From assembly GCF_004564135.1 (NCBI RefSeq), contig NZ_CP038255.1, positions 156,501-220,500 on the forward strand: a stretch of DNA of 64,000 bases, given 5' to 3'. Shown in pieces: positions 1-57,944 of the stretch. Numbering within the stretch: the stretch's first letter is position 1; every line of letters begins with the position of its first letter. The notes beneath the pieces were generated by a model. That model was not told the origin of the DNA, made no database searches, and saw nothing but the letters and a program-made list of their open reading frames with translations. The DNA comes from Terasakiella sp. SH-1 (lineage in GTDB: Bacteria > Pseudomonadota > Alphaproteobacteria > Rhodospirillales > Terasakiellaceae). A program made the position numbers and the translations under genes.

Positions 1-108
1 GATCTATCGCTTCACCGATGAAGGCATGCTGGTCGAAGGCACAAACGGCGACGACGTTCTGTCCGGTGCACGCGGTGATGACACTCTGGTCGGCGGTGCC
101 GGTGATGA
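1..108 (+). repeat. Copy 1 of a 108-bp exact direct repeat inside the RTX gene
   Basis: Bases 1-108 are identical to bases 1429-1536. The copy encodes the end of the last W-type repeat and the RTX nonapeptide block. It may continue to the left, outside the window. The two copies lie 1428 bp apart in the same reading frame and bracket one set of seven repeats, as expected if a whole cassette had been duplicated in tandem. Confidence 0.9.
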
Positions 109-1909
109 TGTGGTTGAGTTCAGCGGGGCACGTGAGGATTATTCCATCGTGCAAACCAGCAACGGTCTGGTGGTCAGCGATAAGCGTCTGGTCGGTCAGG
201 GCGATGGCCGTGACGTGCTGCAAGAGATTGAGACCCTGCGCTTTAGCGATGGGGACTATAGTGTGGCCGATGCTCTGGGTGTGCGTGATCTCGGTGCTGT
301 CATGCAGGCATCTGCTCATGAAGAGCTTGTGAACACGCGTGTGATTGATGCGCAGTCCAATCCGGATACAACGGCGTTGAAAGACGGTGGTTATGTGGTG
401 AGCTGGACGTCGAACAATCAGGATGGTTCTGGTGCAGGGGTTTATGCCCAGCGTTTTGATAGCGATGGTCATCCGCAAGGTGTTGAGTTCCGTGCCAACA
501 GCCGGACTTCTCATGGGCAATTCCATTCAGCGGTTGCCAGCCTTGAAGATGGCGGCTTTGTCATGACGTGGGAAAGCCAGCATCAGGACGGGTCGGATTC
601 AGGGATTTACCATCAGCGTTTTGATGCACAGGGCAACCGGGTTGGTGCAGAAGGGCTGGTCAACAGCTATACCCCTCATAATCAGACCCGTCCGGAAATC
701 ACCGGTCTGGCCGATGGTGGGTATGTGATCACCTGGCAGTCGCAGCATCAGGATGGCTCTGGCTATGGGGCGTATGCGCAACGTTACGATGCGCAGGGCA
801 ACAAGTTTGGCAAGGAGTTCATGCTGAGTGATGTGGGCAGTGGTGATCAGGCTTACCTGGATGTTACGTCCCTTGAAGACGGTGGCTTTGTTGCAACCTG
901 GGGCTCGCGTGGGGACATTCGAGCACAGGTGTTTGATGCCGACAGCGAACGTGTGAATGGTGGCGAGGTTCTGGTCAACCTGCAGACGCGTGACGATCAG
1001 AATGAACCGAAGATTTCTGCACTAAGTGGCGGTGGCTTTGTGGTGAGCTGGCACAGCAAAAACCATGATGGCGATGGGTATGGCGTTTATACACGTCGTT
1101 TTGATGCCAAGGGTCAGGCGATTGATACACGTGATGTGCTGGTGAACCAGTATGTTCGCTCCAATCAAATGCATAGCAGCGTGACGGGCCTGGATGACGG
1201 TGGTTATTTTGTGACCTGGTCGTCTTATGGTCAGGATGGCGACAACTGGGGTGTTTATGGGCGTCGTTATAGTGTTGACGGTCAGGCCATGGGCAATGAG
1301 TTCCGGATGAACAATTACACGGGCAGTTGGCAGATTGCCCCTGATGTGTCCAGCCTTGAAGACGGTTCTGTACTTGTAACCTGGCATTCCCATGGTCAGG
1401 ACGGTTCCAACGACGGGATCTATAGCAAGATCTATCGCTTCACCGATGAAGGCATGCTGGTCGAAGGCACAAACGGCGACGACGTTCTGTCCGGTGCACG
1501 CGGTGATGACACTCTGGTCGGCGGTGCCGGTGATGACACCTACTTGTTTGAGCTTGGTGATGGAAATGATTTAATTATCAACCATAATGAAGGCGCAAGT
1601 AACGATACCCTTTTGTTTGGAGAGCAAATTGACAAAGATCAGTTGTGGTTCTCGCGTGATGGCAATGACCTGAAGGTACAAGTTATTGGGACGAAGGATA
1701 CTATCGTTGTTGATGATTGGTACGAGGATAATGGTGCCAATCAGGTTGCTGAATTTGAAACATCAACAGGTGACACGATAACGTCTACCAATGTGGAGAA
1801 CCTCGTACAGGCAATGGCTAGCTTTACTGCACCAATTGAGGGCGAAATGGAGCTGTCTCAGGATTTGCAAGGAGCACTCGATCCGGTTATTGCTGCAAAT
1901 TGGGAGTAA
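2..1909 (+). CDS. Large RTX-type type I secreted protein, C-terminal part (5' end outside window)
   Basis: The frame is open from base 2, so the true start lies upstream and only about 635 C-terminal residues are seen. Two short RTX nonapeptide blocks (GTNGDDVLSGARGDDTL and GGAGDD) flank seven repeats of roughly 45-60 residues built on DGG(Y/F)VVxWxSxxQDGSGxGVYxQRFDxxG. One of the seven is shortened. Seven consecutive copies could form a seven-bladed propeller (inference). After the second RTX block comes a segment resembling the haemolysin-type calcium-binding-related domain (DTYLFELGDGNDLI, then DTIVVDDWY), and the tail is short and acidic, as in type I secreted proteins. The likely role is a calcium-stabilised, surface-released adhesin or S-layer-like protein. 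No type I exporter genes are in the window, and no enzyme motif is visible. Confidence 0.75.
   Translation: MYRFTDEGMLVEGTNGDDVLSGARGDDTLVGGAGDDVVEFSGAREDYSIVQTSNGLVVSDKRLVGQGDGRDVLQEIETLRFSDGDYSVADALGVRDLGAVMQASAHEELVNTRVIDAQSNPDTTALKDGGYVVSWTSNNQDGSGAGVYAQRFDSDGHPQGVEFRANSRTSHGQFHSAVASLEDGGFVMTWESQHQDGSDSGIYHQRFDAQGNRVGAEGLVNSYTPHNQTRPEITGLADGGYVITWQSQHQDGSGYGAYAQRYDAQGNKFGKEFMLSDVGSGDQAYLDVTSLEDGGFVATWGSRGDIRAQVFDADSERVNGGEVLVNLQTRDDQNEPKISALSGGGFVVSWHSKNHDGDGYGVYTRRFDAKGQAIDTRDVLVNQYVRSNQMHSSVTGLDDGGYFVTWSSYGQDGDNWGVYGRRYSVDGQAMGNEFRMNNYTGSWQIAPDVSSLEDGSVLVTWHSHGQDGSNDGIYSKIYRFTDEGMLVEGTNGDDVLSGARGDDTLVGGAGDDTYLFELGDGNDLIINHNEGASNDTLLFGEQIDKDQLWFSRDGNDLKVQVIGTKDTIVVDDWYEDNGANQVAEFETSTGDTITSTNVENLVQAMASFTAPIEGEMELSQDLQGALDPVIAANWE
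1429..1536 (+). repeat. Copy 2 of the 108-bp exact direct repeat
   Basis: Identical to bases 1-108. Downstream of the identity the sequences differ completely: copy 1 leads into another repeat cassette and copy 2 leads into the C-terminal calcium-binding-related domain. Confidence 0.9.
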
Positions 1910-1974
1910 TTGTTAGATCTCAAAGCCTATTTAAGGCTGATAGAGAATGAAGGGCATCTGAGTGTCCTGAAAGG

Positions 1975-2010
1975 AAAGTCCATTAGGTGTTGTGCTTAAT
2001 GGACTTTTTC
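1975..2010 (+). terminator. Rho-independent terminator of the RTX gene
   Basis: An 11-bp perfect stem (AAAGTCCATTA at 1975-1985 pairing with 1997-2007) with an 11-base loop is followed by a T-rich run on the plus strand. It lies about 65 bases after the RTX stop codon. Confidence 0.8.
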
Positions 2011-2014
2011 TGTT

Positions 2015-2185
2015 TTAATTTTTTTTGGGGGTAACAGACATCATTTCACTTTCCTTGGACAACCACTGGTTCAACGTGGGTATGCCAATGTCAAGATGAG
2101 CTGCAACTTGTTTGTGAGATAGCTTACTTGTCCGTGCAAGTGGAATAACGGCATGTTTAGATTTATCAGATTTTTTGAGACTCAT
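2015..2185 (-). CDS. Small helix-turn-helix protein, 56 residues, possible transposase remnant
   Basis: A short lysine-rich ORF starts with ATG at 2185, six bases after a strong Shine-Dalgarno run (AGGGGGG). It contains a helix-turn-helix-like stretch, LSHKQVAAHLDIGIPTLNQW, of the kind found at the N-terminus of IS3-type OrfA transposase subunits and small DNA-binding proteins. It ends in a lysine-rich tail with no further domain. It could be a truncated transposase subunit or an independent small regulator. No inverted repeats or transposase catalytic domain are nearby. The rest of the interval 1910-2308 holds only the terminator at 1975-2010, and nothing else was recognised. Confidence 0.45.
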   Translation of the reverse strand: MSLKKSDKSKHAVIPLARTSKLSHKQVAAHLDIGIPTLNQWLSKESEMMSVTPKKN

Positions 2186-2308
2186 TTATACCCCCCTGTA
2201 AATCTCAATTTAACAGAAGGTAATCTCCAGGTTTAAGGAGCATGTCCATGTTTTTGATCGGACGTGATTTTACGTATTTAATCAATCGGCAAGAAATATT
2301 TTTGAGGA

Positions 2309-3355
2309 TTATTCAAAATAGTTTTCTGTGGCGCGGGCGAAGGCTTCCAGGACTTTGGGGGCATGAATGCCTCTTTTTTCCAGGGCGCTTTTGCGCATGG
2401 CAACAAGATATTGTTCTGATGAGGTAATCGGGATGTCTTTGATTTCTTTACCGTCTTTTAAAATATGCAGGGCATATTCGGCGGCGGTTTCGCCTTGTTC
2501 ATAAGGTGAGGCCCCGACCGAGATCATGATGCCATCGCGTGTGTTGAAATCATTGATGCCAATCACGGGAATGGGGGAGTTTGCCTCCGTCCAGCTGCCG
2601 ACTTCGGTGGATGTGACGAATTTCCGCTCATTGGCCTTATCTTCATCATTGCGATACATTTTACGATAGGCACCAACCAACAAGAGGTCAGCCGTGTTAT
2701 CAACGGTGCGTACATAGCTTTGCCAAGCTTCAAACGTATCGAAGGCGATGGGAGACTGGAAGTCTAAAGCTGTCCATTGGTTATCGGTCAAAAATTTCGC
2801 ATCAATTGAGGCGGAGAAAGACGTGTCGCTGGCAAAGACTGCCTTTGGCAGCTTGTCTTTGAAATGATCAGCAAAAAGCATTTTGACGAGTTCTTCAACG
2901 GCATCAACGGGTTTGCATTCCAAAATGCCTGTCGCATTTGTGGCTTCGCGATAGCCATAGGATTCCTGACAGCCATTGACCCCGGCAAAAACGATCTTCA
3001 TTTTGGGATCGTTGATGTAATGTTTTGCGGCCAGTTTTTGTGCATTGTCATCAATGGCGATGAGGACATCGGGCTGCATATCATCAATGGCTTTGCGTGC
3101 GGCAACGCCTGCGCGGTGTTTAAAGTTTTTGCCGCCTTTTTTCTTGGTCCCCATATAATGGTAGCGAATATCCAGCCAGCTTTCCTGTTCCAGAATGCGC
3201 TCCAGCCCGACATTAATTTCACGGGTCCAGATATAGTCAGTCGAATAACTGTGCAGGATTAAAACAGTTGGTCTGGACATATTGAGCCACAGCACAAACA
3301 GAATAAACCCCAGAAAAAAAGCCCCCATTGTGAGGTTTCTTAAAATGACGGTCAT
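2309..3355 (-). CDS. Membrane-anchored ABC_sub_bind-type periplasmic binding protein
   Basis: This 348-residue protein has an N-terminal hydrophobic segment (about residues 8-25) that probably anchors it, followed by a fold resembling the ABC_sub_bind family (PTVLILHSYSTDYIWTREI, VLIAIDDNAQKLA, KIVFAGVNG, IPVIGINDFNTRDG). Family members bind small ligands in the periplasm, and some act as sensory rather than transport proteins. No ABC permease or ATPase gene is nearby, so a sensory or accessory role seems more likely than uptake. Its ATG overlaps the stop of the upstream CNB-SLC13 gene (TAATG), which indicates translational coupling. It is the last gene of the four-gene operon. The ligand is unknown. 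Confidence 0.7.
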   Translation of the reverse strand: MTVILRNLTMGAFFLGFILFVLWLNMSRPTVLILHSYSTDYIWTREINVGLERILEQESWLDIRYHYMGTKKKGGKNFKHRAGVAARKAIDDMQPDVLIAIDDNAQKLAAKHYINDPKMKIVFAGVNGCQESYGYREATNATGILECKPVDAVEELVKMLFADHFKDKLPKAVFASDTSFSASIDAKFLTDNQWTALDFQSPIAFDTFEAWQSYVRTVDNTADLLLVGAYRKMYRNDEDKANERKFVTSTEVGSWTEANSPIPVIGINDFNTRDGIMISVGASPYEQGETAAEYALHILKDGKEIKDIPITSSEQYLVAMRKSALEKRGIHAPKVLEAFARATENYFE

Positions 3356-5250
3356 TAGAGTAACCCCAGATACTGCCAGAAAGGAATAGAGGCATAAATT
3401 GCAATCAGCTTAAAGCCGAAGGTCAAAAAGTTCAGGATAACCAGCTTGCGATCATCAGCACGCCCCTGTGGCCCGACCAAAGAAACAAACATGGTGTAAT
3501 AAGATGCCTGATAGGGCCATAGGAAGTTTTCAGCCAACAACAAAATAATAAAACCGACAACCCATGGGTTGACCCCGATATTGATGGCTGTGGGGATTAA
3601 TAAAGTGGCGAAAATAATCACGGTGGCATTGATGGGCAGGGCCAAACGGATGACAAAAATCGTTGCGGCCAAGACGAGGATAAACAGGTTGAACTCGTTT
3701 TCCATATAAGTCCCAAGCCAGGAAATTTGCTGGCTGAGCCAGTCATCCAGTTCAACATAACGCATGGCCCGCACAACACCGATTAAGGCCCCAAGAAAAA
3801 TCAGGAAGCTCCAGTCAATTTTCTCACGAAAAGCTTTTTTGCCAAGAAAGCCAAAAATCAGAAGGGACATGACAATGGCGAGGGCAACCCAAGGGATCTC
3901 AATGCCGTGTAATCCCGTGGTCAGGAAACTGGCAAAAAGGACGCCAAGGCCGAACATACAGGCCCATTCTGGCGGGGTGATCGGGCCTAAAATCCGCTTT
4001 TGTTGCAGGACCAGGGATTTGGAAATGGACGGATTGCTTTTGTTGCGAAACAGAAGCCAAAGCCCCAGAAAATAAAGTGCCATCAAAATCGCCCCGCAAA
4101 GGGAGGCTGCATAAAGCCAGTAGAGCCACTGAAAACGAAATTGCTCCTGAAACGGCAGCATACCGAAAATCACAAAATTAACGGATTTACTGCTGAGGAA
4201 AACTGCAGAGAGCAGGCTGACCCCACCAACGACACTCCCCGCCAGACGAGAGGCTTCGGCCTTGGCATCAGCGGGTTTAAAAGCGCGCAACAGGTCAGAC
4301 ATAAAGGGGGAGACAATGGCAATCCGCCCATTGGTCGTCGGTACCATAGGGGTCAGCGCTGTGCCTGTGATGAATAAACTGAAATTATACCACGCCTTAT
4401 GGGCAGGGCCGAGTTGCAACAACCATAAAAGGGCACGGAAACTCAGACCTGAAAAGGTAATGACGGCACTGAGACCCAGAATACTTAAGGCCATAAAGAA
4501 ACTGTCAGAGGCAAAACCACCCAGGGCAATATCTGGCGGGGCAACACCGGTTAGGATAATACTGAGAACGAGAAACAGGGCGGGGACGAAATCCGGCAGT
4601 AAACGAAAGACCCACATGCTAATGGCGGAACTGAGTGTGCAAAGCAAATAAAGCGCCTGCGTGTTGGGCAGGCTATCGCTTGCATGAAAATACCAAAACA
4701 GCAAAAGAGGGGCGCATAAGGCTACCAGCCAGCCCAGAAACAGGCGAGGGGAGTCTTTGCTTTTATTTGAGGCCGTATGATGCCGGGTGCCCGTTTCATT
4801 GGTATCGGGGTTTAAACGTCCGCCAAAAGAGGCGAGCAGACGACTTTTTAATGCAGGTTGTTCGGCCAGTTTGGAAATGGCCTTTGCTGGCATGACAAGA
4901 ACTTTGGCAGGGGTCGAGGCTTTGATGGTTGCCCCATAGCGATCAAGGCCAATGGCGGCTTCTTCCCCAAGAAAACCATTTTGGATGGTGATTATTTGAC
5001 CATCTTTTTCGATAATTTCAAAAGCCCCTTCCAAAATAAGAAACATTTCAGCAGCTGGGCGTTCTTCTTGTTGCAAGACCTCACCGGGTTGGAGAGAACG
5101 TTCTTTTACATAAGGCAGAAAGCGAGCCAACTCGGCAGGGGAGCAACTTTGAAAGGTTGCTTCTGATAACAATGCGCTTGCAAGGTTATGATGGTCCGGT
5201 GTCGGGAGGGCTGAAGCCGGGGCGACACGATCAGGCACCAAAGAGCGCAT
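3355..5250 (-). CDS. Cyclic-nucleotide-binding domain fused to an SLC13/DASS-type anion transporter
   Basis: Residues about 30-150 form a CNB domain: a beta-roll with LQPGEVLQQEERPAAEMFLILEG and a phosphate-binding-cassette-like stretch LGEEAAIGLDRYGATI that keeps the Glu and Arg positions. Residues about 165-630 form a polytopic membrane protein resembling the SLC13 divalent-anion:sodium symporter family, with motifs such as PMVPTTNGRIAIVSP and LALPINATVIIFATLLIP and roughly 11-13 hydrophobic helices. Known family members carry dicarboxylates, citrate or sulfate. Substrate here is unknown, and cyclic-nucleotide control is an inference from the fusion. The start overlaps the end of the GAF gene by 20 bases, and the stop overlaps the ABC_sub_bind start. 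Confidence 0.75.
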   Translation of the reverse strand: MRSLVPDRVAPASALPTPDHHNLASALLSEATFQSCSPAELARFLPYVKERSLQPGEVLQQEERPAAEMFLILEGAFEIIEKDGQIITIQNGFLGEEAAIGLDRYGATIKASTPAKVLVMPAKAISKLAEQPALKSRLLASFGGRLNPDTNETGTRHHTASNKSKDSPRLFLGWLVALCAPLLLFWYFHASDSLPNTQALYLLCTLSSAISMWVFRLLPDFVPALFLVLSIILTGVAPPDIALGGFASDSFFMALSILGLSAVITFSGLSFRALLWLLQLGPAHKAWYNFSLFITGTALTPMVPTTNGRIAIVSPFMSDLLRAFKPADAKAEASRLAGSVVGGVSLLSAVFLSSKSVNFVIFGMLPFQEQFRFQWLYWLYAASLCGAILMALYFLGLWLLFRNKSNPSISKSLVLQQKRILGPITPPEWACMFGLGVLFASFLTTGLHGIEIPWVALAIVMSLLIFGFLGKKAFREKIDWSFLIFLGALIGVVRAMRYVELDDWLSQQISWLGTYMENEFNLFILVLAATIFVIRLALPINATVIIFATLLIPTAINIGVNPWVVGFIILLLAENFLWPYQASYYTMFVSLVGPQGRADDRKLVILNFLTFGFKLIAIYASIPFWQYLGLL

Positions 5251-5806
5251 GCCACAGTTCCTTTAATTTTTTAAGAAAGAAGGGTTGGGTTTTTTCAATG
5301 TAGTAGGCCGTGGTGAGTTCATGGGCCACTTTCATAGTCATATTTTCAAGGTGGGTTTGGTCTGTTTTGCTGAAGGGACCACCTTGTTTGTTGAGCATCT
5401 GAGCAACACCGATAATGTCGCCTTCCAGTGTTTGGATCGGGACACATAGAATATTGCGTGTGGTAAACCCGGTGTTGGCATCAATCTCTTTATTAAACCG
5501 TTCATCATCATAGGCATCATCAATGATCAGGCTTTCCCCGGTGGAAAAAACATGACCTGCGATCCCTGTGTCGGGAGCAATGCGAATTTCTTCGGTCAGG
5601 TTGCCCATGGCAATGCGGGAAAACAGCTCGTGTGTTGTGTCGTCATAAAGAAACAGCGTGCCCCGTTCGGCGTTACTTTCCATTGTGGTGATTTCCAACA
5701 GGCAGAACAGGACTTCATCCAGACTATCCTTGTCAGAAATTTCCTGTGAAATGTCCAGCAACAGCTCGGTATGGCGGGGGTTTCGGCTTGTGGCATCAGG
5801 CGGCAT
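5231..5806 (-). CDS. Stand-alone GAF domain protein with NKFDE-like motif
   Basis: This 191-residue soluble protein consists of one GAF domain (about residues 20-165) and a short basic tail. The domain carries TRNILCVPIQ, IIGVAQMLNK and then a spaced F, D and E (NKQGGPFSKTDQTHLE). This matches the NKFDE signature of cyclic-nucleotide-binding GAF domains in phosphodiesterases and adenylyl cyclases. No catalytic domain is attached, so it probably works in trans, for example on the neighbouring channel or transporter (inference). The ATG lies inside the end of the upstream MscS-fusion gene (11-base overlap), and its 3' end overlaps the next gene by 20 bases. Confidence 0.75.
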   Translation of the reverse strand: MPPDATSRNPRHTELLLDISQEISDKDSLDEVLFCLLEITTMESNAERGTLFLYDDTTHELFSRIAMGNLTEEIRIAPDTGIAGHVFSTGESLIIDDAYDDERFNKEIDANTGFTTRNILCVPIQTLEGDIIGVAQMLNKQGGPFSKTDQTHLENMTMKVAHELTTAYYIEKTQPFFLKKLKELWHALFGA

Positions 5807-8624
5807 CTGTTTGGAGGCTTTCAGTTTGCGGTGGTTTCAGTTCGTTGATGAACTGCCAGATTTCATTCCAAATGCGGTTGACCACATCTTTGTCGGCATC
5901 GGTGGCATGAACGATTTTAACCGCGTATTCGATATGTTTGGTGGTGACAGTTTTTACGCTAATGGCGATTTTATCTGTGCCATCAATAGCTTCACCAATT
6001 TCCTTGACCTTTGCCATGACCATATGGGGGTCAAAACAACGGTCCAGACTGATGGTCAGGTCGCCTTTTACCACGGCATTGGAACTGCTGAGGTTATTGA
6101 TTGTGGTGTTGGCCATGGTGCCATTGGGCACAGAGATGATGGTTTTATCATTGGTTTTGATTTTGGTAGCTCGCCAGTTCATATCGACGACTTCACCGGA
6201 AATATTATTAACCTTTACCTTGTCGCCAATCTTGAAGCTTTTTTCCAGACTGATGGCAATGCCGGAGAAAATATTGATCAGGTTTGGTTGCAGGGCCAGA
6301 CCAATGATCATGGCAAGCAGGCCAGAAGTCGCCAGCAGTTTGGTCAGATCTTGTTCAAAGACAAAGGCAAGCAGCCCGAGGACGGACAGGGCATAAATGA
6401 TCACCATGCCAAAGTTGCGCACAATTCGGGGAATGGGGCGATCAGTTTTTTTCTCAAGAGGGGCCCAGACAAATAGGGCGACGGCGCGCTGAATGAAGTG
6501 TCCACCTATCAGCCACCAGGCAACTTCGAAACCATTGCTAATGGCTTGTAAATACATATGGCCCCAACGTTCAGCACACCATCCTAAAATAACGGCTTCG
6601 CCTGCTGAAAGGAGAACCATCCAGGTGAGAACATCAGACAGCCAGACAGGCCATTCTTTATGAATGCCGGGGTTCTTTTCAGCAATAAACATAAAACCAA
6701 GAACAGCCAGAATGCTCAGGGCAAGAGCTGTTCCCTGAATGGCTGGCGGGATAATGCCGCGCAGGCGCAAACGGTTTTCTGAAACAGAGAGCATCATGGT
6801 GAAACGGGAATAATCCGATAAATCTGAAACCGCTGATAAAAGTTCCGGGTTGCCGTAAGCTTCTTTACGCATGCTGTCTTGAAAAACAGCCGCATCACGA
6901 ATGGCCCAGTCGGTCGATCCATCAAAGAGACGTTCTTTGCGTATTTTATTGCGCCAGTTTTGCATGCCTCCCATACCGATATCATCGGCAACATAAATCA
7001 GATTGGCACCGGGAAGGGACTGGTGGCGAAAGGAAATGCCGAGATTATATTCACCAAAGGCATCCCGGCCTTTGACGGCTTTGGCCTGAAAGCGCCCTTT
7101 GATCCGATAAAGCTGATAAGGGATTTGACCGTTCAGGCGTTTTTCAACCGCATCGCCAATTTCCAGATCACCAATGGCGTTGAGGAAATGAATGTTGTGT
7201 GGATCAAAATCAGCACCACCGCGAAACCACAGGTAAAAATCGGCTTCATAAGTCAGGGTGACAGGGTCAAAATTGGTTAGGTTGATGGGGGAAATACCTG
7301 TGTAAATGACATCTGTTTTATAAAACAGGTTATCATTCATTTCCAACACCCGCCCTTCGCTGAGGTCCAAAGACGAAACCAGGCGCGGGTTCTGGATATC
7401 TTGGAGCTGGGTGGTGGCCGAGACCAGACGATTGTCACGAAACATCCCAACATGAACGGATTTGGCCACATTACCGTTGTCGTCAAAGGAAATTAACCCT
7501 GTGATACCACGCATGGCGTTAGAGGGGCTTTTCATATCATGCAGATGGGCGTGAATGTTTTCTCGAACCTGTTGATGGTTCATGCCCTCTGTCCATGCCC
7601 CATTTTCCAGAGCCTGACCGATCAGATGAGCTGCGTCGTAATAAGCTGCGGCAGAAGAATCCGCCTCAATACCGTAGTGTTTTTCATAAAGGTGGGTGAA
7701 GTTTTGTGCCTTTTCACCCGCCACATCAAAAATCAAAGAGGAAAGGGCCAGAAGATTGTCGGTATAGAAACCCGGCTGTTTCTTTTCCTGAGGCAGGCCG
7801 TCAAACAGTTGGGGGAAGGTTTGCTTCCCGATTGAGGCACTGCCAATCATCGGCCAGTCAAACCCACGATTTTTAATATCACGAATGACAATCGCGCCTT
7901 CATCATCATGTAAGGCCAAAAAAATGAGATCGGGTTTGGGGCCTTGGGCAAGGGCACTGACAATGGCTTTGCTTTGTTCGTTGAGGTTTTTGACCTCCGT
8001 ATCCAGCTTGTGGCTGGAAAAGGCATTCAACCCCAGTTCGTTTGCACTGTTTTTGAAAGATTCATAAAGGGAGGTCCCGTATGTATCACTATCATAAATG
8101 ACGCTGATGTTCTGGTGCCCGTTGGATTTGGCGTAACGGGCGACAAACTGCCCCTGTAAGGTGTTGTCGGGCACAACCCGGAAAATCCAGTCCTTGTTTT
8201 TTGTAACAGCCGGGGCTGTCGCTGTTCCCGCAATCATGGGGGTTTTATGGGTATTATAAATGGTTGAAGCCGGGGTTGTGGTCCGGCTGGAACGGTGGCC
8301 CAGCACGGCAATCGTCTTGTTATCTGTCGCGATCTGCTGGGCGATTTTTTGAGCCTGTTCAGCGTTGTTGGCATCGTCATGGACAACAAGTTCCAGCGGG
8401 CGTTCTTCATTGCTGCGTTTGGCATTATATTCGTTAATATAAAGGCGTGCCCCGTTTTCCATCGCCTTGCCGTATACTTGATCCTTGCCGCTCATGGGGC
8501 CAACAAGGGCGATTTGATAGGGCTCGACCTGACGTTTGGTTGATAAGGATTTATCGGAAAAAACACTAAATCCCCAAACGCCTATGGTGAGTATTGCTGC
8601 CAATAAGATTAGTAAACGCTTCAT
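5796..8624 (-). CDS. Periplasmic-binding-protein / beta-sandwich / MscS channel fusion
   Basis: About 942 residues. An N-terminal signal-anchor is followed by a Peripla_BP_6 type receptor domain (about 35-390: IALVGPMSGKDQVYGKAME, VLGHRSSRTTTPAST, VIYDSDTYGTSL). A beta-rich region (about 425-620) contains YEADFYLWFRGG and AFGEYNLGISFRHQS, which resemble the extracellular domain of bacterial pentameric ligand-gated channels. Four hydrophobic helices follow, then an MscS pore helix and beta domain (about 770-900: SGLLAMIIGLALQPNLINIFSG, SFKIGDKVKV, SVPNGTMANTTI). The expected role is a ligand-gated mechanosensitive-type channel in the inner membrane. I chose ATG at 8624, behind GGGTGGAAAG, over an in-frame GTG at 8642 that lacks a ribosome binding site. 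First gene of the operon. Confidence 0.8.
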   Translation of the reverse strand: MKRLLILLAAILTIGVWGFSVFSDKSLSTKRQVEPYQIALVGPMSGKDQVYGKAMENGARLYINEYNAKRSNEERPLELVVHDDANNAEQAQKIAQQIATDNKTIAVLGHRSSRTTTPASTIYNTHKTPMIAGTATAPAVTKNKDWIFRVVPDNTLQGQFVARYAKSNGHQNISVIYDSDTYGTSLYESFKNSANELGLNAFSSHKLDTEVKNLNEQSKAIVSALAQGPKPDLIFLALHDDEGAIVIRDIKNRGFDWPMIGSASIGKQTFPQLFDGLPQEKKQPGFYTDNLLALSSLIFDVAGEKAQNFTHLYEKHYGIEADSSAAAYYDAAHLIGQALENGAWTEGMNHQQVRENIHAHLHDMKSPSNAMRGITGLISFDDNGNVAKSVHVGMFRDNRLVSATTQLQDIQNPRLVSSLDLSEGRVLEMNDNLFYKTDVIYTGISPINLTNFDPVTLTYEADFYLWFRGGADFDPHNIHFLNAIGDLEIGDAVEKRLNGQIPYQLYRIKGRFQAKAVKGRDAFGEYNLGISFRHQSLPGANLIYVADDIGMGGMQNWRNKIRKERLFDGSTDWAIRDAAVFQDSMRKEAYGNPELLSAVSDLSDYSRFTMMLSVSENRLRLRGIIPPAIQGTALALSILAVLGFMFIAEKNPGIHKEWPVWLSDVLTWMVLLSAGEAVILGWCAERWGHMYLQAISNGFEVAWWLIGGHFIQRAVALFVWAPLEKKTDRPIPRIVRNFGMVIIYALSVLGLLAFVFEQDLTKLLATSGLLAMIIGLALQPNLINIFSGIAISLEKSFKIGDKVKVNNISGEVVDMNWRATKIKTNDKTIISVPNGTMANTTINNLSSSNAVVKGDLTISLDRCFDPHMVMAKVKEIGEAIDGTDKIAISVKTVTTKHIEYAVKIVHATDADKDVVNRIWNEIWQFINELKPPQTESLQTDAA

Positions 8625-8803
8625 TCTTTCCACCCAATGCACTTAGTCAGGGAAGGACTACCACAATAAGGTGAAAAACTCGAGTAAAGATGTAAATTTA
8701 AATAGTCTTACGCATTAATGGTTGAATGTTGGTTCGCTAAAGACATTGGGAATAGAGGATGGTACCATTCTACCAACGTGAAATAACAAAGTAATGCGTA
8801 GAT
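8625..8803. promoter_or_regulatory. Divergent intergenic region with a 9-bp inverted repeat
   Basis: This spacer separates the minus-strand channel operon from the plus-strand kinase operon and must hold both promoters. TACGCATTA at 8709-8717 is the exact inverse complement of TAATGCGTA at 8792-8800, which ends three bases before the kinase ATG. A short dyad, TGGTA/TACCA, lies at about 8760-8775. No clear -35/-10 or -24/-12 pair was recognised. Confidence 0.35.
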
Positions 8804-11800
8804 ATGGTTGAAGAGAGTGTTTCTATCACAAATTCTGTTTTCTTTGAGAAATCACAAGATGGGTTTCTGATTCTGAAGGAAGGCAAAATTTCATCGCTTA
8901 ACCGGGCCGCTGTGACCTTGCTTGGTTATCAGGAAAAAGAGGACCTCCTTCATCAGGCATTTGTGGACCTATCTTTATCTGAACAGGCTGATGGTCAGGA
9001 TGTTTTGCAAAAATGGACGCAGGTACAGGCACAGCTGGCAACATCTGGGGAGTGTGAAACAGGCTGGTTTTTTTGTGCACCATCAGGACAGTATGTTTAT
9101 GTGGATGCTGTCTTTGCGCCCTCGCAAATACCGAATGATGAGGCGTTATATGTTATTTTAAAGTCTGCACAAACGGACAAGAATGAACATTTTCGCTTGC
9201 TTGTTGAAAATTCACCGGACTGGACATGGGAGGTTGATGCTCATGGAATTTATACTTATGTCAGCCCGCAAGTCTTTAATCTGTTGGGCTATCACAGTGA
9301 AGAATTGCTGGGGAAAACACCCTTTGATCTGATGCCTGCCCAAGAGGCGGAAGAACTCAGGGAAACATTTATTGAAATTGTTCGCGAAGCCAAGCCGTTT
9401 TATTCATTAAAAAATATCAACTTACATAAAAACGGCGAACAGGTCGTTCTGGAAACCAGCGGTATTCCTTTTTTTGCCCCCAACGGGGAATTGTTGGGTT
9501 TTCGCGGCATTGATCGTAATATTACAGAACGCCATAACAGCAATATCAAAGTCAGGAAATTACAAAGCCAGCTTAATCTGGCGATTGAAAGTATGTCTGA
9601 GGGATTTGCCCTGTTTGATGCCGATGACAAGATGGTGGCCTGTAATGATGTTTATCGGGAGATGTATGCCACCCATGTTCATGCAATCAAGCCCGGCAAC
9701 AGCTTTGAAGCTATTTTACGGGCAGGTATTGCCGCCAATGCCTTTCAACAAGCCGTCGGGCGTGAAGAAGAATGGCTGGCAGAACGGGTGGAACAACATA
9801 AACAGGAACATGCACAGATTGAACAGCAGCTTAAGGATGGGCGCTGGTTGTTAATCAGTGAAAGACGTATCGCTGATGGTGGTTCGATCAGTGTGCGCCT
9901 TGATATTACAGACCTGAAAAAGAAAGAAGAAGAACTCCTTGAGGCGCAAAAACGCCTGGAAGATTTTGTCACGGCCTCTTCAGACTGGTTATGGGAAACC
10001 GATGAACAGAACCGTTTGATTTTTATTTCTGACATGTATGAGGAATATACAGGGATTAAAATTAAATCAGTCTTGGGAAAAACAAGGAAAGAGCTTTTTG
10101 CCAATAATGGAGTAAGAGAGGTTTGGGATAGCCATTTTGAAACAACGGATGCCCAAAAACCGTTTAAGGATTTTGCCTATAGCTTCACATCAGGCTCTGG
10201 TGAAAAGCTTCATATCGCCATCAGCGGAACTCCTTATTTCGATTCTCAGGGAGCGTTTAAGGGCTATCGTGGGAGCGGTAAAAATATTACCGCACAGGTG
10301 CGTGCAGAACACAAACTGCAGGAAACCCAAAGCGAATTGCGCAAAAGCAACGAAAATCTGGAAATGAAGGTTCAAGAACGCACCCTTGAACTTGAACGTT
10401 TGATGGAACAGGCGAGGCAGGCCAACGAAAATATTGCGGCTTCTCGGGCTTATCTGGATGCATTGGTCAATAACTTGCCTGATGGCGTTGTGGTTATTGA
10501 TACCAAGGGGCGTATCATTGGCTTTAGTCCGGCGGCAGAAAAAATCTTTGGGTATCAGGAACATGAAATTCTGGGCAAGAATGTCACGATTTTGATGACG
10601 GAAGAAATGACCGCAAAACACGATGGTTTTTTAAGAGAAGCCTTAAACGGTAAAGCTGTGCGCGGCAGTCATGCCATTGAACTGGAAGCCGTGCATAAAG
10701 AAGGTCATGTAATCCCGGTTGATATTGCGGTCAGCATGGCCCAAACGGATAAAACGAAATTCTTTACAGGTATTGTGCGCGATATTTCCAAACGCAAGGA
10801 TAATGAACAGGCGTTGATGGAAAAAGAAAATCAGTTGCGTGATGCGATTGAGAATATATCAGACGGTTTTATCACCTTTGACCAAAATGACCGTCTGGTT
10901 ATCTATAACGAGATGTATAAGAAAATGTTCCCCCAATTGACCGATCAGGTCTTTGAGGGAAACAGTTATGCCAATATTTTGGATAAGTTTGGTTCAAGCG
11001 GCCTGATTGAATCAGAAGAAGATTTTGCTGCTTATAAAGAAAAACGCTTGCAGGAACATCTCTGTCCAACAGGTGTGCCTGATGTTCAACAGTTTCGCGA
11101 TGGGCGCTGGATCCAAACCCGTGAATTTCCAACCCCCAGTGGCGGGGTGGTGGCCTTGCGTGCTGATGTGACGGAACAAAAAGAAATGGAACTGGCCCTT
11201 GCGCGGCAAAACAGAAATATCAATTTCTTGCACGAAGTTACCAATAACCTGTTTAAGGAAGAGAATTTATCGTCCACCTTTGAAATCTGTCTCAATGACA
11301 TTCTGGCCTTCATGGATTGGCCTTTGGGATATCTGCACATGGTCCGCCAGACCTTAACCGGGATTTATCATTTTGATAGTTTCTGGACAGGAGAGCCTAC
11401 CGGCAAAGCACGTGATATTCAAAATGAACTGAGCAAAGACAATAACAAGTTAATCGTAGAATTTGCAGACCGGGCCATTGATGAAAAACATGTGATCATT
11501 CAACACAAACAATTCTCATTTGAAAATGCGAACTTTATGGTCACTTCCAAACGCCACGTGCCGATGACGGTCGTGGTCGTTCCGATTTTTATGTTTAATA
11601 TTCCTATTGCCGCCGCAGAAATCTTTATTGACCAAAAGGTGAGTGTGGATCGAGAAACCCTTAAGCTTTTAGAGTCAATTGGCAAGCAGCTTGGCGATAA
11701 TATTGAAAGAAAAGTTTCCCGTCTGGAAATGGCGGAACGTTCGCGCAAGCTGAAAGACAGTATTGATAAAATTGAACGGGCGCGCAAAGCGGCGATTAAT

Positions 11801-14149
11801 GTGATGCAGGATGCCCAGCTTCAAAAGAAACGGGCGGAAGAGACGGCTTATGAACTGGAAAAATCTCGTCAAAGCCTTGAGGTTGCCCGCCATCAGGCCG
11901 AAACGGCGAATGTGGCAAAGTCGGAATTTCTTGCAACCATGAGCCATGAAATTCGCACTCCAATGAATGCCATTATCGGGATGTCTGATCTGGCGTTGAA
12001 AACGGACCTGGATTCAAAGCAGCGCAATTACGTTGAAAAAGTCCATTATTCTGCGGAAGCCTTATTGAGCATTTTGAATGATATCCTCGATTTCTCCAAG
12101 ATCGAGGCCGGCAAGCTTTCCATGGAGATGATCGACTTTAACCTGAGTGATGTGATTGATAACGTTTCACACCTTTTTGCCTATAAAGCGCGGGAAAAAG
12201 GGCTGACAATCCTGTTTAACATGGATGCCAATATGCCGCTGGGCCTGAAAGGGGACCCAACACGTTTGGGGCAGGTTTTGACCAACCTTGGATCAAATGC
12301 ATTGAAATTCACCCATGAAGGGGAGATCGTGTTTGATATCAAGCTGCTGGAAGATCAAGGCCAGCAGGTCAAGCTGCATTTCCTTGTGCGTGATACGGGG
12401 GTGGGCCTGTCCAAAGAAGCACAAGGCAAACTGTTTCAGGCTTTCACCCAAGCTGATAGTTCGGTCACAAGAAAATATGGGGGCACAGGTCTTGGCTTGA
12501 CGATTTCCAAGCGCCTGACAGAACTGATGGGCGGCGAAATCGGTGTGGAGAGTGAAGAAGGCAAGGGAAGCTGTTTCCATTTCACAGCTGTCTTTACCAA
12601 AGGAAAAATCATTGCGGACCAAGCTTATTGTGGCAGGTTGCCCCAAGGGTTGCGAGCCCTTGTTGTGGATGATAATGCCAGTGCGCGGGAAATTCTCTAT
12701 GAAACCCTGAAAAGTCTGGGCTATGTGGTTGAGGTTTTATCCTGTGGTGATGAATGTTTACCAGCGCTATTGGCCGCAGAACAGGAAGGGACACCTGTTG
12801 ACCTTCTTGTTCTGGATTGGCATATGCCGGACCTGAATGGTGTTGAGACATTCCAGCTGGTGCAGGAAAGCCAAAAACTGGTCCATAAACCACCAGCGAT
12901 TATGGTGACGGCCTATAATGAAAATGAACTGGCTGAACAAGTAAAAGGGCTTGGCATTCAGGCGATTTTGTCCAAGCCTTTGTCTCCTTCCAGTCTGTAT
13001 GAGGTTTTATCTAAACTCTATGATTCTTCTTCAATAAAGGGCACAGTTGAAGACGAGGTGGGGAGTGAACCTAAAACAGGGGCAGCAGCCCTTGTGGGAA
13101 GCCGGGTGTTGTTGGTGGAAGATAACGAGATCAATCAGGAGATTGCACGCGAGAACCTTGAAGAAATTGGCATTCGCTGTCAAATCGCCAATCATGGTCA
13201 AGAAGCTTTGGACTGGCTGGAAAAAGAAACGTTTGATGGGGTGTTGATGGATTTCAATATGCCGGTTATGGATGGTTTGACAGCGACCAAAATTATTCGG
13301 AAAACATATGGGTTCGATGATCTGCCCGTGATTGCTATGACAGCCAATGCCATGTCCAGTGATCGGGAAGATGCAATGGCCGTTGGGATGAATGATTATA
13401 TTACCAAACCGATCAAATTTGAGGAAATGATTGAAACAATGGCGCGCTGGATTGCCCCAAAAGATGGGGTGGTCATTCAAACAGAAAGGGATCAACACCC
13501 CATGCAGACGGTGCTTGACGAGGAAGGTTTCCCTGCGATTGCTGGGGTGGATACAGCCTATGGCCTGAAAATTGTTCGGGATAATAAAAAGCTTTATTGC
13601 AAGCTGTTGGATAAGTTCCAGCAAACCCAGTCTGAATTTTTATCGCGTTTTTCCGATGCCTATAATGCAGGTGATGAGGAAACGGCCGTGCGAGAGGCCC
13701 ATTCGTTAAAAGGGGTCGCTTCCAGCATTGGGGCGCAGGAAATTTCCACATCTGCGGCAAAGCTGGAACAAGCGGTCAAGAAAAAGCAGGAACGCCATGA
13801 GATTGACCCCTTGCTTCAGGAATTGGAAAGTTTGTTTAAGGTTGTTTTAGGCGGAATATCCCAGGCTTTGTCGCAGGTAACTGGAACAGTGCAAGGTCAG
13901 GTAAAGGGCGGGGATGTCGTTGCCTTGTCTGAAATGAAAGTACAACTATCAGTGTTGTTTGGTTTGTTGGAAGGCTTTGATACCGATGCGGTAAACCTTC
14001 TTGAGGAGTTGATGGCACAAAATATGGCACCGGACGTAACCTCTTGTATGGAAGAGATGAATGGGTTGGTGAATGAATATAATTTCGAACCTGCTTATGA
14101 ACTATTGCAAGACTTACTCAAAAAAAATGATATAATCCTTGATAGATAA
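8804..14149 (+). CDS. Giant hybrid sensor histidine kinase: six PAS, GAF, HisKA, HATPase, two REC, HPt
   Basis: This 1781-residue protein has no evident membrane helix and is probably cytoplasmic. Six PAS-like domains lie at roughly 10-115, 130-250, 265-375, 390-505, 555-670 and 685-795. A coiled coil follows PAS4, and a GAF-like domain occupies about 815-970. HisKA has its phospho-histidine near residue 1048 ([12 protein letters not shown]), and the HATPase spans about 1155-1270 ([20 protein letters not shown]). Two receiver domains have acceptor aspartates near 1338 (VLDWHMPD) and 1482 (LMDFNMPV), and an HPt domain has His near 1632 (EAHSLKG). The protein therefore holds a full His-Asp-His relay that can pass phosphate to one of the regulators encoded just downstream. 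The signal is unknown. Confidence 0.9.
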
Positions 14150-14181
14150 AAATAAAAAAACATCAACTTGCACAGGGCGCT

Positions 14182-15210
14182 ATGAAGCAAACAGTTTTGG
14201 TCGTCGATGATACGCCGCTTAATATTGATCTTTTAAAAGACGCGCTTGGCGATGAATATAAAGTAATTGCCGCAACATCGGGTGTGACTGCGATCAAGCT
14301 GGCCTGTGGCAAACAGATGCCGGATTTAATTTTGCTGGATGTGATGATGCCGCAAATAGATGGCTATGAGGTGTGTGAAACCTTAAAGAAGAATCCATTA
14401 ACCGCAAAAATTCCGGTTATTTTTGTGACAGCCCTTGAAAAAGTTGAAGATGAAGAAAAGGGGCTGATGTTAGGGGCAGTTGATTATATCACCAAGCCGA
14501 TACGCCCCGCAATTGTACGTGCCCGTGTTGCAACCCATCTTGCGCTTTATGACCAAAATCGCACCTTGGAAAAACAGGTTTCCCAACGTACCGAAGAGCT
14601 GGAACAAACACGCCTTGAGGTGATCCATCGCTTGGGGCAGGCTGCGGAATATCGCGATAATGAAACTGGCCTGCATGTCATTCGAATGAGCCACTATTCC
14701 CGCCTGTTGGCCGAAGCATTAAACTTTCCCAAACATGTGGTTGATCTGGTTTTTCATGCCGCCCCCATGCATGATGTGGGCAAAATTGGTGTGCCGGACA
14801 GTATTTTGCTCAAGCCCGGTAAATTAAGCGATGAAGAATGGGCGATAATGCGTGAGCATCCGGCAATCGGTGCTAAAATCTTGGGGGAGGAATCATCTGA
14901 ATTGATGCGGGCTTCCCATGATATTGCGATTGCCCATCACGAAAAATGGGATGGCTCTGGCTATCCCTATAATTTGAAGGGCGAAGATATTCCTTTGTTT
15001 GGTCGTATCATTGCCGTTGCTGATGTGTTTGATGCTCTGACAACGGCACGGCCTTATAAAAAAGCCTGGGCGGTGAAAGATGCTGTTCAATTTATCAATG
15101 AACAAAGCGGGCAGCATTTTGATCCGCAGTTGGTGGGACTGTTTAACAATCTCATTGATGAAATTTGTAAAATCAAAACTAAATATGAAGAAACAATCGA
15201 GTTTGCTTAG
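14182..15210 (+). CDS. Response regulator with HD-GYP cyclic-di-GMP phosphodiesterase domain
   Basis: 342 residues. An N-terminal receiver domain (VLVVDDTPLNIDLL, acceptor Asp in LILLDVMMPQIDGY) is followed by a short coiled coil and a complete HD-GYP domain. The catalytic signatures HDVGKIGVPDSILLKPG, HHEKWDGSGYP and ADVFDALTTARPYK are all present, so the enzyme should hydrolyse cyclic di-GMP under control of receiver phosphorylation. It lies 32 bases after the giant kinase gene, which is the likely phosphodonor. Architecture and size match RpfG-type regulators. Confidence 0.9.
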   Translation: MKQTVLVVDDTPLNIDLLKDALGDEYKVIAATSGVTAIKLACGKQMPDLILLDVMMPQIDGYEVCETLKKNPLTAKIPVIFVTALEKVEDEEKGLMLGAVDYITKPIRPAIVRARVATHLALYDQNRTLEKQVSQRTEELEQTRLEVIHRLGQAAEYRDNETGLHVIRMSHYSRLLAEALNFPKHVVDLVFHAAPMHDVGKIGVPDSILLKPGKLSDEEWAIMREHPAIGAKILGEESSELMRASHDIAIAHHEKWDGSGYPYNLKGEDIPLFGRIIAVADVFDALTTARPYKKAWAVKDAVQFINEQSGQHFDPQLVGLFNNLIDEICKIKTKYEETIEFA

Positions 15211-15224
15211 AGGTTGGAGGAAAC

Positions 15225-15596
15225 GTGGCGTATAAAATCCTAACTGTTGATGACAGCAATTTTGCAAGAATGCTGCTTAAAAAAGCGATTCTGGAAGCTC
15301 AAAGTGATGTAGAGATCAGCGAGGCAGATTGTGCTGAGGCAGCGCTGAAAATGCTTGCGGGGAATTCCTATGATATTTTCTTCATTGATGTGAATATGCC
15401 GGGAACAAACGGTTTTGAGCTGGCCATGCAAATCCGGGAACAATTGCCTGAGGCCCATTTGGCAATTTTGACAGCCAATATTCAGGATGCAAGTCAGAAA
15501 AAAGCCCAGGAGTTGGGAGCAGCCTTTATTGCCAAGCCGGTAACGACTGAAAAAATCCGCAGCTTTCTCCAACAGGTGGGAGAAACGGATGGCTGA
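15225..15596 (+). CDS. CheY-like single-domain response regulator
   Basis: 123 residues, a receiver domain only: ILTVDDSNFARMLL supplies the acidic pocket, IFFIDVNMPGTNG the acceptor Asp, and FIAKPVT the conserved Lys. The start is GTG at 15225, preceded by GGAGG. The 3' end overlaps the CheC/CheX-like gene by eight bases, so the two products are probably made together. The pairing of a CheY-like receiver with a CheC-type phosphatase suggests a phosphorylation and dephosphorylation switch. No DNA-binding or enzymatic output is attached. Confidence 0.85.
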   Translation: MAYKILTVDDSNFARMLLKKAILEAQSDVEISEADCAEAALKMLAGNSYDIFFIDVNMPGTNGFELAMQIREQLPEAHLAILTANIQDASQKKAQELGAAFIAKPVTTEKIRSFLQQVGETDG

Positions 15597-16191
15597 ATTT
15601 GATGACCTTGAAAAAGATATATTTATCGAGCTGTTAAACATTGCCGTCGGGCAGGCCGCTGCGGGACTGAGTGAACTTGTTCAGGAAAAAATTGACATGT
15701 TTGTGCCCAATTTGCACACGCTGTCTGAACGCGAAGCTTCTGCTTTGGTCGATGAGAAACTGGGCCATCAGGCCACGGTGATTTCGGAACGTTTTTCCGG
15801 GATTGTACCCGGGCAGATTATGCTGCTTTTTCCACAAGCTGAAAGCCTGATCCTTGTACGTAAAATGCTGGGCGAAGAAATGGACGAGGCAAGCGCCTCG
15901 GAAGTGGAACAGGAAGCTTTATCTGAAATTGGCAATATGATTTTAAATAGCTGCTTGTCCAGTCTGGCGGATGCCTTTGAAGGGCGTTTTATCGGGGAAT
16001 TGCCGGTTTATGCCTCTGGACAGGCCAGTCGACTCTTCAAGGGAAAGGAAGATCAGGAAATCCTGTTTATCGAGGTGAATTTCCGCCTGAGTGAAAGTGA
16101 TATCAATGGCTATATCGTGATTATCCTGAGTATCGAAGGTATGGCTGAATTGCAGCAATATCTTAAAAACATTGTGACGCAGAATATATAG
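15589..16191 (+). CDS. CheC/CheX-like CheY-P phosphatase
   Basis: 200 residues with two copies of the phosphatase signature helix (Glu, then Asn three residues later): IFIELLNIAVGQAAAGLSEL near the N-terminus and EVEQEALSEIGNMILNSCLS in the middle. This is the pattern of CheC, which dephosphorylates CheY. It is coupled to the upstream receiver gene, its likely substrate. A classical chemotaxis operon (cheA, cheW, cheR, cheB) is not present, so it may act on a non-flagellar pathway. Fairly confident of family, less of target. Confidence 0.8.
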   Translation: MAEFDDLEKDIFIELLNIAVGQAAAGLSELVQEKIDMFVPNLHTLSEREASALVDEKLGHQATVISERFSGIVPGQIMLLFPQAESLILVRKMLGEEMDEASASEVEQEALSEIGNMILNSCLSSLADAFEGRFIGELPVYASGQASRLFKGKEDQEILFIEVNFRLSESDINGYIVIILSIEGMAELQQYLKNIVTQNI

Positions 16192-16199
16192 TGTGATCT

Positions 16200-17126
16200 A
16201 TGGATAAGTTTGGTTGGTTATCACGTGCTGCTTTTGACGCTATTGTTGGCGGGGTTATTATTCTGGATACCCGCTTTAAGGTGGTGCTGTGGAATGACTG
16301 GATGTCGATTGTGACACACACGCATGCCCATGATGCAGAAGGCCAGAGGCTGATTGATATTTTTCCTGAACTGGAAAAAAGCCGAATTATCCAGTCGACA
16401 GAACGGGCCATTGATCAAGGTATGGCCTCCTTCTTATCTCATTCCCTTAATAAAAGGCTTTTCCCCTTAAAACGGAAAGATCAAATGGAGGGGAAACAGA
16501 CTGAAATCTGTCAAAATGTGACGATTAAGCCATTTTTTGATGAGGAGGGGGAGAAATACTGCCTTATCCAGATTGAAGATGTCAGTAAGACAGTTATGAG
16601 GGAGAACCTGCTGAAAAGTGCAAGTGAGCGTTTTCAGGCTATTTTCAATACGGTAAAAGACGGGATTGTGATCACTGATCGAAGCGGGATTATTGAATCG
16701 TTGAACCCTGCTGCATTGGAAATTTTTGATTGTCAGCAGGATGATTTGATCAATCGTAAAATCACAGACCTGTTAACTGAAACTGATATGTATGGATTTT
16801 CCAAGGGGGAAAAGACCCCGCAGGAACACAGATATGAACAGGTGCTTACGACGAAAACGGGGAAAACAACGGTTATTGAATATGATGTCAATGTCATGAC
16901 ATTAGAGGGGCAAGCCCATTATGTCAGCATCATTCAGGATGTGACATTGCGCAAACAAAATGAAAAGGAATTGCGTTCAAGAACGCGAGAGCTTGAACAA
17001 TTTAACGATGCCATGGTCGATCGTGAAATCCGCATGATTGAACTAAAAGAAGAAATCAATAAATTGACGAAAGAACTCGGCCGTCCCATTCCATATGAAG
17101 AAATCTGGAATGATCAGGCTGATTAA
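16200..17126 (+). CDS. PAS domain protein without kinase, coiled-coil C-terminus
   Basis: 308 residues. Two PAS-like regions occupy about 5-125 (AFDAIVGGVIILDTRFKVVLWN) and about 130-255 (FNTVKDGIVITDRSGIIESLNP). The protein ends in a charged helix, NDAMVDREIRMIELKEEINKL, followed by GRPIPYEEIW. This terminal helix is of the kind that normally joins PAS domains to histidine kinase cores, yet no kinase follows. The stop is clean and the next gene begins 18 bases later. It may bind and regulate the giant kinase or CheC in trans (inference). Ligand unknown. Confidence 0.75.
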   Translation: MDKFGWLSRAAFDAIVGGVIILDTRFKVVLWNDWMSIVTHTHAHDAEGQRLIDIFPELEKSRIIQSTERAIDQGMASFLSHSLNKRLFPLKRKDQMEGKQTEICQNVTIKPFFDEEGEKYCLIQIEDVSKTVMRENLLKSASERFQAIFNTVKDGIVITDRSGIIESLNPAALEIFDCQQDDLINRKITDLLTETDMYGFSKGEKTPQEHRYEQVLTTKTGKTTVIEYDVNVMTLEGQAHYVSIIQDVTLRKQNEKELRSRTRELEQFNDAMVDREIRMIELKEEINKLTKELGRPIPYEEIWNDQAD

Positions 17127-57941: not shown

Positions 57942-57944
57942 ACA

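Follow-up and report, generated by a model that had tools for sequence, protein, structure and literature searches.

Fusions that join a class-I periplasmic binding protein (PBP-I) to the ligand-binding domain (LBD) of a pentameric ligand-gated ion channel (pLGIC) have been known in alphaproteobacteria since the 2004 survey by Tasneem et al., according to which the bacterial ART-LGICs preserve the LBD plus a four-helix core (PMC549065). N-terminal PBP-like domains on prokaryotic pLGICs are reported again in a 2022 review (PMC9221113). Membership of the MscS superfamily is defined by homology to the pore helix and the upper vestibule, and members with additional ligand-binding domains are mentioned (PMC4560390). 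Here we describe a gene from Terasakiella sp. SH-1 that combines a PBP, a middle domain for which a pLGIC-type identity is supported, and an MscS pore in a single chain. It lies in a stretch of 64,000 nucleotides (contig NZ_CP038255.1, positions 156,501 to 220,500), hereafter called the window, whose positions are used for all coordinates. Among the matches listed in a literature search by title and abstract, none placed a pLGIC LBD on an MscS pore; the MscS review of Malcolm and Maurer (2012) may contain an earlier mention. The explanation that we favor, with moderate confidence, is an MscS-superfamily channel gated by a ligand, which would have originated when a PBP-fused receptor of the pentameric type had its pore replaced. 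Sequence and models show the domains with their order and conservation, the fold of the LBD, its shared ancestry with PBP-pLGIC LBDs, and the operon; the elements that we infer in this explanation are conduction, gating by a ligand, the identity of that ligand and the direction of the swap.

Domain layout and the middle domain

The channel gene is found on the reverse strand (5796..8642), as are all its features and the rest of its operon. It is an uninterrupted open reading frame (ORF) of 948 amino acids from a GTG at 8642, from which the residues are numbered here. The in-frame ATG at 8624 (942 amino acids), where the original prediction had put the start, appears likelier to be the true one because a ribosome-binding-like stretch, ggtggaaaga, precedes it. 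The protein is made up, in order, of a membrane anchor, a class-I PBP, a beta-sandwich, five membrane helices including the MscS pore, and a vestibule. The anchor is an N-terminal membrane helix (signal anchor) predicted by AlphaFold2 and hydropathy at residues 2-33 (8544..8639). The LivJ/ANF-receptor-type binding domain follows at residues 41-408 (7419..8522; Pfam, PDB 3hut and AlphaFold2). Both of its lobes are spanned by Peripla_BP_6 (PF13458, residues 41-380, E = 2.2e-34) and ANF_receptor (PF01094, residues 65-395, E = 6.6e-26), as in class-I PBPs. In sequence, the PDB entries closest to it are binding proteins for branched-chain amino acids; 3hut matches with E = 4.7e-22. At the other end, the MscS beta domain (MS_channel_2nd, PF00924, E = 1.6e-18) covers residues 790-852 (6087..6275) and is followed in the AlphaFold2 model by a C-terminal alpha/beta vestibule domain (residues 858-934, 5841..6071); here the closest PDB structures are MscS-type channels (best E = 1e-12). 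The two terminal assignments of the original prediction, PBP and MscS, are therefore borne out by Pfam. NCBIfam points to the same two domains, although its matches fall far short of the NCBIfam cut-offs, and the Pfam scan had no match between residues 400 and 690.

Five helices (residues 633-656, 663-692, 695-733, 739-762 and 766-800; 6243..6746 as a whole) come after the beta domain in the AlphaFold2 model, the last being the MscS-type pore helix LLATSGLLAMIIGLALQ. Hydropathy at its threshold backs four of the five and does not back 695-733. Four extra membrane helices had been predicted; extra helices are indeed present, but they would number about three, since the last three of the five probably correspond to TM1-TM3 of MscS. 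M778 and L782 would correspond to the two gate leucines of E. coli MscS. With homology to both the pore helix and the upper vestibule (PF00924 and the MscS chains of the PDB), the protein belongs to the MscS superfamily. The four-helix M1-M4 channel domain of pLGICs is not present, the MscS helices and vestibule standing in its place, and among the proteins with the middle domain none was matched by both the pLGIC membrane-domain and the MscS models. Since its pore is MscS, the protein is an MscS superfamily member with a pLGIC-derived head, outside the pLGIC family.

The middle domain (residues 433-622, 6777..7346) was modeled with AlphaFold2 from an alignment of 16 MscS-type proteins that contained no pLGIC-type row. 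The model is a beta-sandwich whose last strand continues into a membrane helix (mean predicted local distance difference test score, pLDDT, 73.5; predicted template modeling score, pTM, 0.66), its residues 1-40 being of poor quality. Foldseek retrieved 1577 PDB matches with this model, 1105 of them with E <= 0.001. The acetylcholine-binding protein (AChBP) is named in 48 of the 50 matches listed (best E = 1.2e-9), and the remaining two are 7txf, titled after a conotoxin complex. The original prediction had judged this region to be pentameric-channel-like and had proposed structure prediction and a fold search; their outcome is a pLGIC-type extracellular domain, and the judgement gains further backing from the continuity in sequence with PBP-fused pLGICs. 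Independently of the fold search, the middle-domain profile found proteins such as L058 (746 amino acids), where a pLGIC membrane domain comes after a PBP and this middle domain; GABA-A receptor structures of the PDB are matched by the final 361 residues of L058 (E = 2.5e-5). A beta-sandwich LBD that leads into the first membrane helix, as in pLGICs, is thus seen in the model and in this intermediate. The hhalign comparison of 83 MscS-type LBD rows with 16 LBD rows from PBP-pLGICs gave a probability of 100 (E = 1.4e-40, 194 columns), a figure to be read with the selection of the 16 rows for similarity in mind, since the middle-domain profile searches had found them. The same 16 rows aligned with five Pfam-recognised pLGICs (L187-L191), a thin set, at a probability of 96.7. 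Judging from these alignments, the MscS-type LBD and the PBP-pLGIC LBD share common descent, and the identification of the middle domain as a pLGIC-type extracellular domain is supported by the model. Two other candidates, an extension of the PBP and a part of MscS, are ruled out, as control alignments to PBP and MscS profiles gave probabilities of at most 0.2. A gene with the Pfam LBD (PF02931) is present in three of the 100 genomes searched, and the genome of the window has none.

Several results weigh against the favored explanation, in addition to the way in which the 16 rows were selected. Compared directly with the five Pfam-recognised pLGICs, the MscS-type LBDs reach an hhalign probability of only 5 (E = 0.0078), and the middle domain has no match in a profile search of the PDB or, member by member, in Pfam. 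Since direct similarity to known pLGICs is weak, the identity of the domain rests on the fold together with the intermediate. The TM-scores of the 50 Foldseek matches listed are moderate (0.42-0.51 by query length), with root-mean-square deviations of 5.4-10.9. The full-length AlphaFold2 model, built from 22 sequences, has a low pTM (0.47; pLDDT 73.3) and therefore does not fix the packing of the domains. In the LBD phylogeny discussed below, the branches that nest the MscS type within the pLGIC type are weak (72/55 and 89/58) and the root is not firmly placed, and the tree program warned of long branches meeting inside the pLGIC type. Finally, pLGIC heads are pentamers whereas MscS pores are heptamers, a mismatch of symmetry between head and pore.

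Motifs, phylogeny and distribution of the fusion

The two motifs cited in the original prediction are present, FYLWFR at residues 469-474 and FGEYNLGISFRH at residues 529-540. Within the first, alignment conservation singles out WFR (residues 472-474, 7221..7229): each of its letters is found in 84 of the 86 aligned MscS-type rows, the other two being gapped, and among the pLGIC-type rows W is found in 16/16, F in 12/16 and R in 13/16. The Pro-loop, whose proline is described as absolutely conserved across pLGICs (PMC4795631), fares differently. At its position the window protein has DAFGEYNL (residues 527-534, 7041..7064), with alanine in the proline column and without the canonical YPxD, so that it lacks both of the Pro-loop marks of a pLGIC. 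A YPxD-type motif occurs in none of 85 MscS-type rows (one more is gapped), and the proline itself is kept in 18 of 86. The motif [YF]PxD is present in all 16 pLGIC-type rows, four of which (L112, L113, L115 and L117) are not independent evidence because they were assigned by hand, partly on this very motif; the other 12 were typed by the membrane-domain model, four (L058/L049, L083, L084 and L086) being its seeds.

That the window protein has lost the canonical Pro-loop bears on where the ligand might act. The agonist site could lie in the LBD, at subunit interfaces as in pLGICs, with the PBP as an allosteric modulator or ligand concentrator; the 2004 survey does propose that, in bacterial receptors, binding domains fused to the LBD or encoded in its operon supply it with concentrated ligand (PMC549065). 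Yet the altered coupling surface of the LBD that this loss shows speaks against such a site, which we regard as unlikely.

A maximum-likelihood tree of the LBD was reconstructed from 44 hand-picked rows of the 83 MscS-type ones and the 16 pLGIC-type rows, with the Pro-loop columns included. One branch separates the 44 from the 16 (support 100/97), a split that fits a single exchange of pores. As the LBD is known from a much wider range of proteins with pLGIC pores, parsimony would have the exchange run from pLGIC to MscS.

The same domain order is widespread. Among 100 genomes searched, including that of the window, 11 more full-length homologues (worst E = 5.6e-112) were found in nine of the 99 others; the five other genomes of the genus that were part of this search have none. 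Matches to the middle-domain profile occur in 7 of 385 genomes of the class, 31 of 317 of the order and 41 of 398 of the phylum, counts that include the window's own genome, genomes met in several searches and pLGIC-type matches. In a collection of named genomes, a single-protein query recovered no relatives and an alignment-based scan recovered 68 loci, and a search of viral contigs found none. By record title, the loci include Magnetospirillum, Magnetospira, Magnetococcales, Azospirillum, Paracraurococcus, Pacificispira, Sphaerotilus, Gallionellaceae, Methylococcaceae, Thioploca, Thiomargarita, Halobeggiatoa, Desulfobacterales, Sulfuricurvum and, for the pLGIC type, an Anaerolineae bin, with a few bin names that look wrong (one is called Mesoflavibacter). 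By record titles, PBP-LBD-MscS proteins are present in several proteobacterial classes and two further phyla. Typing with home-made hidden Markov models (L033-L186 and the window) found 160 ORFs with the middle domain. Removal of copies and pieces left 109 distinct ones, where distinct means without an identical stretch at fixed places and close relatives still count apart. The search for the three-domain order that the original prediction had suggested thus yielded 82 PBP-middle-MscS proteins, window included. The others are 11 with PBP, middle and pLGIC membrane domains, ten PBP-middle, three middle-MscS, two middle alone and one middle-pLGIC membrane domain; several of the incomplete types are truncated at the end of their contig. 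A frameshift or assembly artefact joining neighboring genes, which the original prediction had named as its own possible undoing, is ruled out because the layout recurs in 81 further distinct proteins, which come from many assemblies, some of them single-contig genomes; we give it a negligible probability.

Some proteins of this survey deserve mention in their own right. Two PBP-LBD-MscS ORFs per locus are found in L176, L177, L179 and L180 (Desulfobacterales and large sulfur bacteria). In the last three the second channel ORF is directly upstream and one copy has a cyclic-nucleotide domain that the other lacks, hinting that the paired copies may form hetero-oligomers. In the Anaerolineae bin, a protein of 1192 amino acids (L183:328-3906) consists of a PBP-I, the LBD and a pLGIC-type membrane domain with Pro-loop, and its C-terminal part reads as a type-II solute-binding protein, which would make two types of binding protein on one pLGIC. 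L059 has a stand-alone pLGIC-like ORF of 358 amino acids (330-1406; best PDB match GLIC, E = 0.0028), adjoined by one that joins a calcineurin-like phosphoesterase to Peripla_BP_6 (1403-3607). Upstream of the pLGIC genes of L187, L188, L189, L190 and L191 are overlapping ORFs that read as Cache-type-sensor-like with membrane helices, an arrangement resembling published operons.

The origin of the MscS pore may be sought among plain MscS-type proteins. The name bCNG is used for MscS-superfamily channels (PMC4560390 and references therein). Six plain proteins among the matches of the 100-genome search strongly match the pore model of the family. By reading, L014, L016 and L027 have a C-terminal cyclic-nucleotide-binding domain, as does the downstream ORF of L019; the strongest relative, L015 (365 amino acids), is too short for one, as are L017 and L018. 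A bCNG channel is an MscS pore with just such a C-terminal domain. With the domain in half of these six proteins but not in the one that matches best, a bCNG origin of the pore is no more than a possibility. A model built from L014, L016, L019 and L027 recognizes the domain in 10 of 72 complete fusion proteins, and in L057 Pfam finds it as well (E = 4.4e-20); the window protein has no PF00027 match in Pfam. In the LBD tree, the fusion proteins with this domain are spread over several deep branches; it may therefore have been ancestral and then lost, or gained more than once.

Operon, gene neighborhood and proposed gating

The channel gene is the first of four overlapping genes. The second codes for a GAF-domain protein of 191 amino acids (5231..5806, overlapping the channel gene by 11 bases). 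The third, overlapping the second by 20 bases, codes for a DASS/SLC13-type anion symporter of 631 amino acids with an N-terminal cyclic-nucleotide-binding domain (3355..5250; PF00939, E = 7.2e-21; PF00027, E = 2.4e-11). The fourth, overlapping the third by one base, codes for an anchored periplasmic protein of 348 amino acids with an ABC_sub_bind domain (2309..3355; PF04392, E = 9.9e-11). In this operon the cyclic-nucleotide domain is thus on the symporter and not on the channel. The closest relative of the window protein in the LBD tree comes from a distant genus of the same phylum. The channel is present in five of the 197 genomes of that genus's order, all five within the genus, and in all five the symporter and ABC_sub_bind genes adjoin it in a different order, with no space for a GAF gene between the three. 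Identities with the one genome of the genus that was compared are 38, 47 and 46% for the three proteins. A sixth genome of the genus, which lacks the channel, has no symporter and weak ABC_sub_bind matches. Since the set stays together despite the change of order, it points to shared function or shared transfer.

This operon also informs the choice of ligand. In the alignment to 1usg, the S and AT of the first lobe, amino-acid contacts in LivJ/LivK, are retained, and the second-lobe contact region is not. With the first-lobe contacts kept and those of the second lobe not, an amino acid is a possible, not a proven, ligand of the PBP domain. Alternatively, the ligand could be an anionic solute, as the presence of the anion symporter suggests.

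Many relatives have a large gene upstream of the channel. Distinct complete channel loci were considered where the upstream sequence reached at least 1.5 kb, and shorter ones were set aside. Of the 61 that qualify, 35 carry an ORF of at least 500 amino acids directly upstream on the same strand, which in three cases is a second channel gene. By hand count, 25 of the 35 have at least 700 amino acids, at least half of them G, D, N, T, S or A, and lie within 150 bases; three more were masked, and some may be spurious frames. Such giant repetitive ORFs occur in L037, L042, L055, L124, L125, L126, L128, L145, L146, L149, L157, L166, L169 and others. All five giants scanned with Pfam have laminin-G, cadherin-like, bacterial Ig or Calx-beta domains (weak in L134 and L149), with LamG, cadherin or Ig-type domains in those of L055, L125, L149 and L157. 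A functional tie between the channel and these genes is a lead. In the genome of the window, a giant RTX gene adjoins the operon but is convergent with it. Its 4013-amino-acid product (window 1-1909, where the gene ends; G000:C1:140501-158500, L193) has long near-identical internal repeats, and upstream of it, on the opposite strand, are genes that read as type I secretion ATP-binding cassette and HlyD-type.

The giant upstream genes are relevant to the possibility that the protein is still a tension-gated osmotic release channel, whose PBP and LBD do not switch it on but tune its threshold, serve as its anchor in the envelope or monitor the state of the periplasm. LamG- and cadherin-type neighbors in many relatives would suit a role at the surface or in the envelope, both pore and beta domain are ordinary for the MscS superfamily, and MscS subfamilies differ by their added domains, some without observed mechanosensitivity (PMC4560390). 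Nevertheless, relatives carry the same PBP-LBD cassette on a pore of the ligand-gated type, and the conservation of cassette and linker across several phyla would be costly for a mere anchor. We consider tension gating of this kind rather improbable.

On the other side of the channel gene, 161 bases away and on the opposite strand, begins a divergent signaling cluster (8804-18275). It comprises a 1781-amino-acid hybrid of PAS, histidine kinase, receiver and Hpt domains, an HD-GYP response regulator, CheY-like and CheX-like proteins, a PAS protein and a receiver protein. Its proximity could suggest a non-conducting receptor that uses its MscS part as a scaffold and whose output is signaling, for instance to the hybrid kinase (8804-14149). 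We find this very unlikely, as the pore helix and the start of the vestibule rank with the most strongly conserved regions of the family, the kinase is outside the operon and no such ORF is listed for the 16-kb neighborhood of L192. Elsewhere in the window (56718-62370) is an apparent sensory cluster, in which a second Peripla_BP_6 protein is followed by a HATPase protein, a FIST-domain protein and one more HATPase protein.

To return to the favored explanation, the domain layout suggests that the window channel would be gated by a small molecule. A small solute would bind the periplasmic PBP clamshell or the LBD subunit interface, and closure of the PBP domain would shift the pLGIC-type beta-sandwich. 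The last strand of the sandwich, continuous with the first membrane helix, would then pull the helix bundle and open the hydrophobic MscS gate, allowing small solutes and ions to pass. The threshold would be set by membrane tension and, in some homologues, also by a cyclic nucleotide on the C-terminal domain. A broader proposal, for and against which we see the balance as about even, is a natural pore swap of single origin, in which a Cys-loop-type head with its PBP moved from a pentameric pore to a heptameric MscS one. The outcome would be a class of large-pore channels, widespread in bacteria and gated by small molecules, which solved the mismatch between five-fold and seven-fold symmetry and replaced the Pro-loop coupling with a new one. 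If ligand gating holds true, the LBD of Cys-loop receptors would be a portable gating module for an unrelated pore of different symmetry. The coupling of extracellular domain to gate could then be tested by a natural comparison, since the same head is found on two pores, in one case with the Pro-loop and in the other without it. MscS, known from textbooks as a tension channel, would in turn gain a branch under chemical control in magnetotactic bacteria, large sulfur bacteria and other aquatic ones, linked to transport genes in some genomes and to giant surface-type genes in others.

Comparison with known systems

The PBP-I-fused pLGICs (ART-LGICs, PMC549065) resemble the window protein in that a PBP-I is followed by a homologous LBD beta-sandwich; they keep the four-helix pLGIC pore and the Pro-loop, whereas the window protein has an MscS pore and a degenerate Pro-loop. 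GLIC, ELIC, DeCLIC and the animal Cys-loop receptors have the same extracellular fold leading to a membrane helix (compared here via AChBP) but, unlike the window protein, form pentamers with a four-helix pore and a Pro-loop and without an MscS vestibule. The NMDA/AMPA and metabotropic glutamate receptors place a homologous PBP-I clamshell on a receptor (mGluR8, E = 2.3e-7) and differ in the second domain and in the membrane part. On the side of the pore, E. coli MscS, YnaI, MscM and MscK share the pore helix, beta domain and vestibule with the window protein; MscS and its larger homologues have neither PBP nor LBD, and MscS itself is opened by tension. The bCNG layout is, by reading, that of L014, L016 and L027, half of the six plain MscS-type proteins that match the pore model strongly; the window protein differs from bCNG channels in having the periplasmic PBP and LBD and in lacking the cyclic-nucleotide domain.

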